Virus record (IMG/VR): IMGVR_UViG_3300011010_000049
Span: 1 to 26,409 of that record
DNA from: a virus
Reading direction: 5' to 3' (one strand)
DNA length: 26,409 bases
Under the pieces are notes generated by a model. The model ran no database searches. It was not told the origin of the DNA and saw only the letters and a program-made list of their open reading frames with translations. Position 1 is the first letter of the stretch; the number at the start of each line of letters is the position of its first letter. Shown in pieces: positions 6,625 through 23,977 of this stretch. The translations under genes were made by a program, and so were the position numbers.

Positions 6625-6972
6625 TTATTTCTTTGCCAAATAAGGATCAACAAGATCAACATCAGCATCAAGAGTGCCTGTAATGTCTTTATCATTAATC
6701 ATGCGATATTTAAACCCATCTTTACCTAAATACAGTAAACCTGCATATTTAGCAAAAATAACTTTGTCGCCCACCACACACCAAGGTGTAGGTTCATCGG
6801 CATAGCATTGGTTGCCCATAGCTACAACAACGCCAGTGGTATTACCCATCTGTTCACGATCTTTAGTTACTTCAGTAGTAAGGATAATGCCTCCTTCGGA
6901 GACTTCTCTTACTTCTTGTGGCTTGATAAGTACACGCCACCCTACTGGGTTAATGCCTGATTCATTACTCAT
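6625..6972 (-). CDS. GroES-like co-chaperonin, 115 aa
   Basis: The fold signature of Cpn10 is visible: PVGWRVLIKPQEVREVSEGG at the start, a mobile-loop tripeptide (GGIIL, about residues 27-31) followed by the loop region TTEVTKDREQMG, then GVVVAMGNQ and VGDKVIFAKYAG in the usual order. The length is slightly above that of bacterial GroES. I chose the ATG at 6972, because GAGAG lies just upstream and the family pattern starts a few residues later; an upstream ATG at 7011 would add 13 residues inside the previous gene. It overlaps the previous stop by 8 nt. It would cap host GroEL to fold capsid or other head proteins, like T4 gp31, which is inferred from the family and position. Confidence 0.88.
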   Translation of the reverse strand: MSNESGINPVGWRVLIKPQEVREVSEGGIILTTEVTKDREQMGNTTGVVVAMGNQCYADEPTPWCVVGDKVIFAKYAGLLYLGKDGFKYRMINDKDITGTLDADVDLVDPYLAKK

Positions 6973-7195
6973 TTGGTTCTCTCTTAATAGTTGCTTCAAA
7001 CAAATCTTCATATTCCAAATTTAGAATAATTGCAATTGCTCTACAGCGACCTTTTACTTCTTGCTCATCGTCAAACGTATTGTTGACTAGACCTTCTTTC
7101 ATGGCTTCCCTATCTGTACCAAGCATTTTCATCAAACGTTTAGTAACAGGATGGTATTTCCATTCATCAAAGTTGTCTTGGCTTACTGCTTCCAT
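6965..7195 (-). CDS. Small helical protein of unknown function, 76 aa
   Basis: The sequence is charged and helix-prone, with WKYHPVTKRLMKMLGTDREA near the N-terminus and a GRCRAIAIILNLEYEDLFEA helix near the end. It lies between the portal and GroES-like genes, 20 nt after the portal stop, and its stop overlaps the GroES-like start by 8 nt, indicating translational coupling. The WKxHPVTKxL pattern is familiar from short proteins next to phage portal genes, but I know no function. A head-assembly accessory role is only positional inference. Confidence 0.7.
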   Translation of the reverse strand: MEAVSQDNFDEWKYHPVTKRLMKMLGTDREAMKEGLVNNTFDDEQEVKGRCRAIAIILNLEYEDLFEATIKREPNE

Positions 7196-20653: not shown

Positions 20654-22590
20654 CCATACCAATTTTTGTAGCTATTGATGTTGAGACTACTCTCAATGGA
20701 AATGAAGATGTGGGACTAGCTCACCCTATGCACCCAGACAATGAAGTCATAGCGTTTGGATTGTGCTATGACGAACGCAGACCATACACAACGTATGACA
20801 AAGAATGTTTTGTAACTCACGTTTGTGAAATGCCTCCAGGGGCTATTGTCTGTGGACATAACTTAGCATTTGATTTGATGTATCTGTACAAAGAAAGTAT
20901 CTTTTTAAAAGAAGAGCTGCAAGGCAGACGTATCTGGGATACGCAACTAGCTGAGTATCTTCTCAGTGCTCAACAAACTAAGTGGTCAAGCCTTGACGAG
21001 TTGTCTCTGCAGTATGGCTTGCCAGTAAAAGACGACAAGATTAAGAAATACTTTGAGAAGGGCTTAGGTTCTGACAAGATTCCTGCTGCAGAATTGATTC
21101 CCTATTTAGAGCAAGATGTTACTAATACTGTCAAGATTGCTCGGCTGCAGTATGCAAAAGCAATTGGAGAAGGTCAACTAACATTGATTCAAACTCAGAT
21201 GGAAGCTCTCCATGCGACAGCAGAGATGCAGTTCAATGGTTTGCACATTGATAAGGCAAGACTTGATAACTACACAGTTGAAGTTGTAAACAAATATGTT
21301 GAAGTAAAACTTGACTTGCAAGAGTTAGCTGAAGATCATCTTATTGAAGACATCAACAGTCCTAAGCAATGGTCACAGTTTTTCTTTGGTGGTACTAAAA
21401 AAGTAAAAGTCAAAGAAGAAATTGGTGTCTACAAAAACGGCAACACTAAATACAAACAAGTAGAAAAGAAAATCAAAATAGAACCATTCATTCGTTATGT
21501 ACCAGACCCAGATAAAATATCTGAAAAGACAGGCCAGGTGTCAGTAGACGATGCTGTGCTCAATGATATGTTGAAGCACACATTTGATCCTAAAGCAATT
21601 GCAATTATCAATGCACTGTTGAAGTATCGTGAGTTATCAAAGCAACTCTCTACGTATGTACAAGGCTTGAGTAAGCACATCATTGGAGACTTCATACATG
21701 GTAAGTTGAATCACACAGCAACTGTTACAGGTCGTTTGTCTTCAACCAATCCTAACTTACAAAACATCAGCAATAACCCAATCAAACAAATCTTTACATC
21801 AAGGTTTAAAGATGGTGCTATTGTTGAGGTTGACTTTAATCAGCTTGAGGTTGTTGCTCTTGCACACGTTACTAAAGACTTGCAACTGATACATGACATC
21901 TCATCTGGCAAAGACATTCACTCTGAGCTGTACAAAGATATGTTTGGTAGGTATCCAACCAAAGAAGAACGTAAGCCATTCAAGGCTAGAACGTTTCAAT
22001 TGATCTATGGTGCAGGAGCTAAAGCTATTAGCAAACAAGCTGGCTGCAGCATTGATGAGGCTAAGAAGTTTGTTGATGTGTTCTACACTCGTTACTCAGG
22101 TGTAGCTGATTGGCACAAGAACTTTGCAGAAGAAGTTGAGGCTAAGTCTACTTATGGATTTGATGACGATGGCTTTAAAGAAAAAGTTAAGACGTACATT
22201 TTATTCACAGAGACTGGGCGTAAATTTTGCTTTAAAGAATACTATAGCGATAGTTCATGGTCTGCAAGAACCTACAATTTCAGTCCAACTGAATTGAAAA
22301 ATTATCCTATACAAGGTCTAGCTACTGGTGATATTGTTCCAATGATGTTGGGTATTATCTTCAGGCAGCTAAAAAACAGAGATGATGTAAAAATGGTTAA
22401 CACCATTCACGATTCTCTAATGTTTGATGTAAAGTTAGACTCAGTAGAGCCATTTTTAAAGGAGATTATAGAAGTATTGAAGCAGACACACAGTTATTTT
22501 GAAGATATATTTAAGAAGCCACTGGCTCTCAAGCTCAATGCAGGAGCATCAGTTGGTATTAATTGGTTTGATATGAAAGAAATCGTATGA
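20650..22590 (+). CDS. Family A DNA polymerase with 3'-5' exonuclease, 646 aa
   Basis: The exonuclease motifs are FVAIDVETT (D10, E12), GHNLAFDL (D75) and YLEQDVTNT (Y152, D156). Polymerase motifs are TGRLSSTNPNLQNI (360-373), motif A IVEVDFNQLEVVALAH (D395, E400), motif B R441-K445-F449-Y453 within RKPFKARTFQLIYG, and motif C TIHDSLMFDV (H587, D588). F449 aligns with E. coli Pol I F762. Unlike Pol I, motif A lacks the Arg after QxE, motif B has Gln after Phe, and motif C ends in Ser instead of Glu. No 5' nuclease domain is fused; that is a separate gene at 23252. It replicates the phage genome. Starts at an ATGA overlap with the previous gene. Confidence 0.94.
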   Translation: MTIPIFVAIDVETTLNGNEDVGLAHPMHPDNEVIAFGLCYDERRPYTTYDKECFVTHVCEMPPGAIVCGHNLAFDLMYLYKESIFLKEELQGRRIWDTQLAEYLLSAQQTKWSSLDELSLQYGLPVKDDKIKKYFEKGLGSDKIPAAELIPYLEQDVTNTVKIARLQYAKAIGEGQLTLIQTQMEALHATAEMQFNGLHIDKARLDNYTVEVVNKYVEVKLDLQELAEDHLIEDINSPKQWSQFFFGGTKKVKVKEEIGVYKNGNTKYKQVEKKIKIEPFIRYVPDPDKISEKTGQVSVDDAVLNDMLKHTFDPKAIAIINALLKYRELSKQLSTYVQGLSKHIIGDFIHGKLNHTATVTGRLSSTNPNLQNISNNPIKQIFTSRFKDGAIVEVDFNQLEVVALAHVTKDLQLIHDISSGKDIHSELYKDMFGRYPTKEERKPFKARTFQLIYGAGAKAISKQAGCSIDEAKKFVDVFYTRYSGVADWHKNFAEEVEAKSTYGFDDDGFKEKVKTYILFTETGRKFCFKEYYSDSSWSARTYNFSPTELKNYPIQGLATGDIVPMMLGIIFRQLKNRDDVKMVNTIHDSLMFDVKLDSVEPFLKEIIEVLKQTHSYFEDIFKKPLALKLNAGASVGINWFDMKEIV

Positions 22591-23114
22591 CAATGCAAAC
22601 AGGTATCGTAGAAGCAGTTTCTACAAAAGATGTGACAACTAAATTTGGCACTAAACCCACCTATTCAATTAAGATTAATGGCAGTTGGGTTAAATGTGGG
22701 TTTAAAAATCACAACGCAAATGCTGGTGACGAAGTAGAATTTGATGGCAACACAGGTGCTTATGGTTTAGAGACTAAAGCAGTAACTGTTCTCCGAAGAG
22801 GAGCTACTACTGCTGTTACTAGTAGCGCACCACCAACTGCGTCAGCAGCTCCTCAAGTTAAAACGTTTGGCGGTTATAAAGATAAAGTATTTCCTATCCC
22901 AGCATTGCATGGTGACAGAGCTATTGTTCGTCAAAATGCTTTAGCACGGGCTACAGACATTTACATTGCAGCTCGTGGTGGTAAACCATTTGAGTTGGAA
23001 GCAGAGAATTTAGATTTTGTTATTAAGCTTGCTCGTAAGTTTGAGGCTTATACAGCAGGTGATATTGATATGATGGAAGCAATTCAAGAAGATGAAACTG
23101 ATCCCCTAGTGTAG
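22587..23114 (+). CDS. Putative single-stranded DNA-binding-like protein, 175 aa
   Basis: Residues 1-70 look like an OB-type beta barrel: VEAVSTKDVTTKFGTKPTYS, IKINGSWVKCGFKNHNANAG, then GDEVEFDGNTGAYGLETKAV. A Thr/Ala/Pro linker (TTAVTSSAPPTASAAP) leads to a C-terminal helical part (NLDFVIKLARKFEAYTAGDI) with an acidic end, EAIQEDETDPLV, as in ssDNA-binding proteins that recruit partners through acidic tails. The start overlaps the polymerase stop (ATGA). Fold assignment is by eye, so the function is tentative, but place and architecture fit. Confidence 0.68.
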   Translation: MTMQTGIVEAVSTKDVTTKFGTKPTYSIKINGSWVKCGFKNHNANAGDEVEFDGNTGAYGLETKAVTVLRRGATTAVTSSAPPTASAAPQVKTFGGYKDKVFPIPALHGDRAIVRQNALARATDIYIAARGGKPFELEAENLDFVIKLARKFEAYTAGDIDMMEAIQEDETDPLV

Positions 23115-23129
23115 TTGCCATGTGGGTTT

Positions 23130-23228
23130 GTAAGGACTGTTAAGCCAGCATTCGAGGATGTTTCTGTAGGGATTTTCTGGCTTTCCCCCCTACCTAGACG
23201 AAACCAAATCGAGGTCCTTACTTTTTTT
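23130..23228 (+). ncRNA. Structured intergenic RNA with pseudoknot potential and terminator tail
   Basis: An 8-bp closing stem (GTAAGGAC 23130-23137, GTCCTTAC 23214-23221) is followed directly by seven T. Inside, AAGCCAG (23142-23148) pairs with CTGGCTT (23177-23183), and GTAGGG (23166-23171) pairs with CCCTAC (23188-23193); their order crosses, giving an H-type pseudoknot. GTTTC (23160-23164) with GAAAC (23200-23204) could extend the second helix. It lies 16 nt after the SSB-like gene and its T-run ends 23 nt before the exonuclease start. The long folded interior makes it more than a simple terminator; regulatory RNA or attenuator are possible. Not matched to any known family. Confidence 0.55.
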
Positions 23229-23251: not shown

Positions 23252-23977
23252 ATGAGAGCATTGATAGATGGTGACATCGTGGTATTCAGAGGTGCTTGTA
23301 GTGCAATTGGAGAAGAAACTTGGGTAGCTCTAGCAAGAGCTGACAAGATGATCCAAGACATACTAGAAGAAACTGGAGCTACAGACTACCAAGTGTACCT
23401 AACAGGATCAAACAACTTTCGTAGAGAGCTAACACCTACCTACAAAGCGCACAGACCAGAAGAAAAGCCAGATCATTGGCAAGCAGTACGAGAGTTCCTA
23501 GTAACACAACACAAAGCAATCATCTGCAATGGATGGGAAGCTGACGATCAAATGGGTATTGACCAAGACAAAGAAGGTAGTACCACAGTTATCTGCAGCA
23601 TAGATAAAGACTTATTACAAATTCCAGGTAGACATTACAACTTTGTTAGAAAGGAAGCACAGCAAGTAGATACAGAACAGGGTAAAAAGTTTCTTTATCT
23701 TCAGAGTTTGATTGGTGATAAGAGTGACAACATTATCGGGGTAGCTGGCATTGGCCCAGTAAAAGCAGGTAAGGCTTTAGCAGAGCTTTTCACTGAAGAA
23801 GAGTGGTATGAGAAGTGCCGTGAACTCTATAACGATGATGAACGCTATCACCTTAACCTACAGCTGCTATACATCTGGCAAAAGCCCAACGACAGTTGGC
23901 AACCACCGCAGGTGGCAACAACAACAACTGACTCGCCCCAAGGCGAGGAGGCAACACAACAACAGGAACAACAATGA
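23252..23977 (+). CDS. 5'-3' exonuclease / flap nuclease, 241 aa
   Basis: The FEN/PIN-like fold is shown by acidic metal sites MRALIDGDIV (D6, D8), WEADDQ (E96, D98, D99), CSIDKDL (D118, D120) and the GDKSDN loop (D156, D159), followed by the helix-hairpin-helix element GVAGIGPVKA (163-172). The arch has TYKAHR with K65 and R68. This is like T7 gp6 and the N-domain of Pol I, which remove RNA primers and process flaps. The Thr/Gln-rich C-terminus (TTTTDSPQGEEATQQQEQQ) is low complexity and probably disordered. GGAG lies nine nt before the ATG. It overlaps the next gene by 4 nt. Confidence 0.9.
   Translation: MRALIDGDIVVFRGACSAIGEETWVALARADKMIQDILEETGATDYQVYLTGSNNFRRELTPTYKAHRPEEKPDHWQAVREFLVTQHKAIICNGWEADDQMGIDQDKEGSTTVICSIDKDLLQIPGRHYNFVRKEAQQVDTEQGKKFLYLQSLIGDKSDNIIGVAGIGPVKAGKALAELFTEEEWYEKCRELYNDDERYHLNLQLLYIWQKPNDSWQPPQVATTTTDSPQGEEATQQQEQQ

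Follow-up and report, generated by a model that had tools for sequence, protein, structure and literature searches.

A small pseudoknotted RNA shared by unrelated phages, best read as a horizontally exchanged accessory RNA gene

We analysed a stretch of 26,409 nucleotides of viral DNA (IMG/VR record IMGVR_UViG_3300011010_000049), here called the window, and found in it a structured RNA of about 95 nt that matches no catalogued RNA family. Covariation shows that the fold consists of four stacked helices (P1-P4) and an H-type pseudoknot, which joins the insertion between P1 and P2 to the apical loop of P4. Comparison of genomes shows that the RNA is shared by unrelated phages, its carriers being T4-like, exonuclease-bearing and terminase-type phages. 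The RNA class itself is well supported, and on the present sequence comparisons it is best read as a horizontally shared, accessory small RNA gene. We give about even weight, for and against, to the proposal that this is an autonomous phage gene whose RNA acts in trans, by its fold, on a host factor. The parts of the element and the neighbouring genes are listed in Table 1.

Table 1. Positions in the window of the RNA, its helices and the adjoining genes
Feature	Position	Strand	Basis or remark
Structured RNA	23130..23221	+	P1 first to last nucleotide; covariance-model match 23128-23223, 91.8 bits, E 5.8e-24
P1 5' strand, GTAAGGAC(T)	23130..23138	+	partner 23213-23221; 9/9 P1 pairs covary
Pseudoknot 5' strand, AAGCCAG	23142..23148	+	within 13-nt insertion between P1 and P2
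P2 5' strand, TCGA	23152..23155	+	covaries TCGA/TCGA, TCAA/TTGA, TTGA/TCAA
P3 5' strand, GTTTC	23160..23164	+	partner 23200-23204; covaries
P4 5' strand, GTAGGG	23166..23171	+	partner 23188-23193; every P4 pair covaries
Pseudoknot 3' strand, CTGGCTT	23177..23183	+	within apical loop of P4
P4 3' strand, CCCTAC	23188..23193	+	covariation
P3 3' strand, GAAAC	23200..23204	+	covariation
P2 3' strand, TCGA	23209..23212	+	covariation
P1 3' strand, (G)GTCCTTAC	23213..23221	+	covariation
U-tract, seven T, immediately 3' of P1	23222..23228	+	sequence
Upstream neighbour, 175-aa ORF	22587..23114	+	phrog_18140 (unknown function), no Pfam match
Downstream neighbour, 5'-3' exonuclease	23252..23977	+	Pfam PF02739, E 3e-13

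An earlier note, made from the sequence of the window, had proposed a closing stem, an H-type pseudoknot and a nested extension at 23130-23228, a structure beyond a simple terminator. All the pairings it named are present, with the pseudoknot crossing and P3 nested, and the core of P1 can be read directly as GTAAGGAC (23130-23137) pairing with GTCCTTAC (23214-23221); its helix list lacked P2. In the window phage the internal loop between P2 and P3 sets GGAU against CAAA, the bulge on the 3' side, separating P4 from P3, is CTAGAC, and the apical loop of P4 is made of TTTT, the 3' strand of the pseudoknot and TC. On geometric grounds, contact between this loop and the insertion would require P4 to bend back alongside P2-P3, turning at the 3' bulge. 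The note's suspicion that the pseudoknot might be strained did not hold up, as the same loop layout is found throughout the family. Five members (L004, L005, L023, L047 and L080) carry an extra hairpin within the 3' bulge, which shows, by comparison of members, an insertion-tolerant site of the fold.

Minimum-energy folding, which cannot represent the pseudoknot, was therefore unremarkable (z of -1.27 for the element and +0.43 with flanks), so that the window sequence alone would not prove a structure; comparison does. We sampled 80 IMG/VR loci with relatives of the exonuclease, independently of the RNA, and found the element after a homologous 175-aa ORF in about half of them. Loops were strongly conserved in these exonuclease-anchored loci, and stems varied freely. 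A scan with the core pattern showed that the element extends far beyond the phage group of the window, and the anchored loci and IMG/VR pattern scans together gave 196 distinct members; at least six P1 pairs were required for this set, on which P1 is not evidence. The conservation of GUUA, AGGAUG, UUUU, UUC and CNRAAUY is partly imposed by the search pattern in divergent members, but not in the exonuclease-anchored loci.

Two alignments were used to assess the helices. In the first (A1), 72 sequences were aligned with MAFFT without any fitting to structure. Paired cells made up 92.8%, compared with 75.5% after shuffling, the covariation score reached 0.549 (shuffled 0.210, slid partners about 0.10), and both-sided changes were seen in 22 of the 32 pairs; the pseudoknot was almost invariant. 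The second alignment (A4) held 99 members and used a model fitted to P1-P4 without the pseudoknot, and gave 89.2% paired cells (60.0% shuffled) and a covariation score of 0.784 (0.227 shuffled). Double changes were found in 29 of 32 pairs, the pseudoknot being among the compensated helices, with double changes in six of its seven pairs and 95.3% of its cells paired. The pseudoknot was further examined by scanning with the frame of the element while only bases other than G were allowed at the third position of the apical strand and the 5' strand was left free. Of 80 loci listed from the first such scan, about 25 proved to be true members, as did nearly all of those from the second. Divergent members had compensated pseudoknots such as AAACAGG/CCUGUUU, AAGCAAG/CUUGCUU, AGGCAGA/UCUGCCU, AACCAGC/GCUGGUU and AAACUAC/GUAGUUU, among others, and members differing in the sequences of P1, P3 and P4 retained pairing. 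These results back the architecture proposed in the earlier note: across related sequences, compensating changes preserve each of the helices and the pseudoknot as well.

On the strand read, G-U pairs far exceeded A-C mismatches (94:17 in A4 and 101:2 in A1), indicating that function resides in the transcribed strand and that the element is an RNA. Inverted repeats and a copy number of at most one per genome would also suit a DNA element, such as an origin, a recombination site or an attC-like site; we consider this hardly credible, because the strand asymmetry already contradicts it and promoter placement is strand-specific. An attC/integron site, raised by P1 stems of the form GTTGGG/CCCAAC, was rejected, as the sequence of P1 is free. 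A tRNA-like T-loop (TTCRA) was likewise rejected, as this segment covaries as helix P2.

We then searched catalogues and genomes for the RNA. Rfam 15 gave no match in the window above the gathering threshold and nothing meaningful at E values up to 10, and only tRNAs in divergent members and arrays. By blastn, whose sensitivity is below that of a covariance model, cultured phages and plasmids gave chance matches only; the match in Streptomyces phage BillNye lay inside an annotated gene and was discarded. A pattern scan of prokaryote genomes returned 88 matches, of which the true members were only L203 and L265, both on MAG contigs, and neither 300 genomes from the centre's family nor 397 from its phylum contained it, apart from the centre itself. 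The RNA is common in environmental viral contigs and was undetected in the cultured-phage collections, so it has probably been missed so far. A published survey reportedly contains numerous candidate structured RNAs from viruses and phages, so that the family, although absent from Rfam 15, may already have been catalogued.

Where the RNA begins and ends was assessed from promoters and U-tracts. Strong sigma-70 -10 boxes with their ends 5-9 nt upstream of P1 were present in 22 of 196 members, compared with about 1.2 expected. TAAATA, the core of T4-type late promoters, stood just before P1 in 10 members and at 0 of 772 control positions; among the records concerned is one with a T4-type major capsid gene (E 9e-146). 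A recognisable promoter was thus present in about 16% of members (32, some perhaps counted twice), and at least six T within 9 nt after P1 in 53 of 196 (about 27%). The transcript ends implied by these signals were shown to coincide with P1. A search for a T7-type RNA polymerase, whose control was silent, found none, which makes the host polymerase likely. The string AGTTGCC upstream of the RNA was no more frequent in the window than expected by chance.

In the window phage, P1 with its U-tract looks like an intrinsic terminator. The "loop" of such a terminator would be a conserved, pseudoknotted domain of 75 nt, and most members have no U-tract. Relatives that lack the RNA usually have a plain terminator at its spot, after the upstream stop codon, of the form GTGAGAGC-CGTAAAAA-GCTCTCAC-T8 or GGGGGC-GTAGCAATAC-GCTCCC-AT7. 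The RNA-bearing locus L009 reads GTGAGAGC-[core]-GCTCTTAC-T6, from which it follows that the core occupies the loop of the terminator in the exonuclease phage group.

These observations bear on a role in cis, in which P1 would be a terminator dependent on the core (an attenuator), or the RNA would modify the host RNA polymerase for downstream read-through in the manner of put. The plain terminators with a similar stem at the same place in RNA-less relatives, the U-tracts, and the probable use of the host polymerase all agree with it, as does the fact that the RNA is transcribed first where a promoter is present. The put RNAs of HK022 are about 70 nt long with two stem-loops, lie next to early promoters, near the start of the early transcript, in two copies per genome, and bind RNA polymerase, causing antitermination in cis through the zinc-binding domain of its beta' subunit (PMC9378689). 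Like put, the present RNA would act by its fold near a transcript start with no dedicated protein. Unlike put, for which PMC9378689 mentions no pseudoknot, it is one enclosed pseudoknotted domain, and its location is not confined to early promoters but varies freely, with some copies antisense to the genes around them. Many members are without a U-tract, the downstream gene is inconsistent, and at four loci (L437, L445, L324 and L110) an opposing gene ends within a few nucleotides downstream, where attenuation or read-through has no obvious use. We regard the cis role as unlikely.

Promoters that start exactly at P1 also speak against a self-cleaving ribozyme that processes phage transcripts, since they leave no upstream part to be processed, and P1 is intact in every context. 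The small size, the pseudoknot, the strongly conserved loop nucleotides and the horizontal spread in phages recall pistol, which consists of P1-P3 with a pseudoknot joining the P1 loop to the P2/P3 junction (PMC4604425) and has conserved nucleotides of its own. Both are small RNAs near phage genes with a pseudoknot formed through a hairpin loop. In the present RNA, however, the apical loop of the P2-P4 hairpin pairs with an insertion after the enclosing P1; the strand order and layout differ from those of pistol, and no Rfam ribozyme family matched. We therefore judge cleavage to be rather improbable.

The genomic settings of the RNA were highly variable. Same-strand neighbours fell into 31 clusters upstream and 44 downstream, and the exonuclease was one among more than 40 downstream neighbours; this speaks against a riboswitch, which would be the 5' leader of a consistent gene set. 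Upstream clusters included several unrelated SSB-type families (Enc34-type PF10991 and DUF669/phrog_6015), as well as nucleases, HNH proteins, terminases and endolysins. The RNA was found after SSB genes, in lysis cassettes, beside terminase genes, in replication modules and antisense within tRNA clusters. Both flanking genes lay on the opposite strand in three lysis cassettes (L110, L117 and L195) and at L324, L437 and L445, and the downstream gene was opposing in more than 40 members, although some of these calls are spurious ORFs. L511 has a promoter, the RNA and a U-tract, with no co-directional downstream gene called, and in L370 the RNA is antisense between two tRNA genes of a cluster. 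This tRNA cluster (L370 2998-4972) is dense, with at least 10 tRNA genes.

Taken together, the contexts, promoters, U-tracts and opposing neighbours fit an autonomous RNA gene rather than the leader of one gene. Of the three functions offered in the earlier note, a small RNA with its own terminator thus fits best, with promoters placed at P1, U-tracts at its end and copies opposing both neighbours; no support was found for attenuation or mRNA processing linked to the exonuclease gene, since the downstream genes vary and are often on the other strand. Counted against an autonomous gene are the low shares of members with a recognisable promoter or a U-tract, and also the same-strand upstream gene in 153 of 196 members, which would be expected equally from a role in cis at the 3' end of mRNAs.

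Such a role would be that of a 3'-end or intercistronic element shielding mRNAs, chiefly those of SSB genes, against 3'-5' decay. The upstream stop codon often lies 0-6 nt before P1, the element follows several unrelated SSB-type genes, and it replaces a terminator. Shielding leaves unexplained the copies with their own promoter, the antisense copies and the limit of one copy per genome, as well as the conserved loop nucleotides, for which a plain hairpin would be sufficient. We hold this explanation to be improbable, to much the same degree as cleavage. In the window, the 175-aa ORF occupies the site that Enc34-type and DUF669 SSB genes occupy in other phages, and may thus represent an SSB-like family not described before; the ORF is a candidate, not proven, single-strand-DNA-binding-like protein. 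Its predicted structure is beta-rich at low confidence, and the predicted structures of two SSB-like neighbours were too poor for use (pLDDT 57 and 47).

We next considered the distribution of the RNA among phages. One match per record was found in 32 of 32 records, and with a broader model all 29 positive records, some as long as 136 kb and 174 kb, likewise had a single match. None was found in eight near-complete relatives of 42-50 kb. Nearly identical exonucleases occurred with the RNA (L047) and without it (L044, L054, L055 and L062), and presence or absence changed five times on the exonuclease tree. Close relatives do without the RNA, which indicates an accessory function.

This distribution also weighs against a packaging RNA like the pRNA of phi29, in which the "pseudoknot" would be an intermolecular contact forming a ring. 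Covariation reads alike for a bulge-loop pairing within one molecule and a contact between molecules, and the RNA appears autonomous, is present once per phage, has late promoters in some phages and adjoins terminase genes in others. The phi29 pRNA is defined by a three-way junction with complementary left and right loops and by gp16 and gp10 homologues (PMC12670572). It resembles the present RNA as an autonomous phage RNA of conserved structure and variable sequence, but the latter has no junction, being a single unbranched hairpin with a pseudoknot (model R1, 0 branch points; covariation), and no obligate partner. It is also found in replication modules, and near-complete sister phages lack it, so it is not an essential motor part there. 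A packaging role is very unlikely.

A search for a partner gene in eight RNA-positive and eight RNA-negative genomes found no gene that tracks the RNA across these 16, which makes a host factor the simplest partner. The best-associated gene was a 76-aa ORF (window 6965-7195, minus strand, and homologues), present in 8/8 RNA-bearing and 3/8 RNA-less genomes; this association is probably phylogenetic, and no function was assigned to the ORF.

In the proposed mechanism, the gene would yield an autonomous RNA, about 95 nt long, that ends at P1. In the window phage, transcription probably comes in from the upstream gene and stops at the RNA's own P1 and U-tract, where relatives have an ordinary terminator. 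The RNA would act in trans by its fold rather than by antisense pairing, as nearly all of its sequence lies in conserved structure, which makes protein binding the likelier mode. It may bind a protein or complex of the shared hosts, which would then be inhibited or redirected; candidate targets are a defence protein or a part of the RNA or transcription machinery. The idea of a host factor is drawn from the accessory distribution together with the absence of a partner gene. A more specific version is tentative and somewhat doubtful as a whole: the RNA would form a new class that acts in trans, either as a protein-binding decoy or as an inhibitor, on a host factor of antiviral defence or of the RNA machinery, and its stand-alone gene would pass between T4-like phages and smaller, unrelated ones that share their hosts, and could settle inside terminator loops.

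The known phage sRNAs covered by a 2025 review (PMC12197685) work by base pairing or through Hfq. PreS and VpdS are, as proposed here, small trans-acting phage RNAs, and of similar size, but they act with Hfq on mRNAs, whereas the present RNA has little free sequence for pairing with a target. None of put, pistol, pRNA and these known phage sRNAs fits. Stand-alone structured phage RNAs without a known target are few. Here the fold is proven by covariation, the ends are defined and RNA-less sister phages offer natural controls; if the proposal is true, the target is a host factor that is worth binding for all the unrelated phages with these hosts in common.

Like the present RNA, GOLLD and further large lake RNAs linked to phages are structured RNAs of lake phages (PMC12286853), and some group B arrays of the present RNA also hold tRNA. 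The present RNA differs from GOLLD in being about 95 nt rather than giant and in having no Rfam match. A second element, T (ACGCATG-RGGATTG-N24-75-CAGTCCY-CAGYCGTG), was observed in 21 copies, at L094 (minus strand), L103 (1019-1412), L193, L190, L170, L090, L152 and other loci. Its stem covaries (GGGATTG/CAGTCCC, AGGATTG/CAGTCCT, GAGATTG/CAGTCTC and ACCTTTC/GAGAGGT), and it directly adjoins the pseudoknotted RNA in terminase-type phages. A third element, U (GTTGGTGAATGCGNAGGCTGAT...GGCCACCAAC), was present in L094, L103, L193 and L483. The elements form arrays in the order T-RNA-T-U-tRNA in L094 and T-U-T-RNA in L103.
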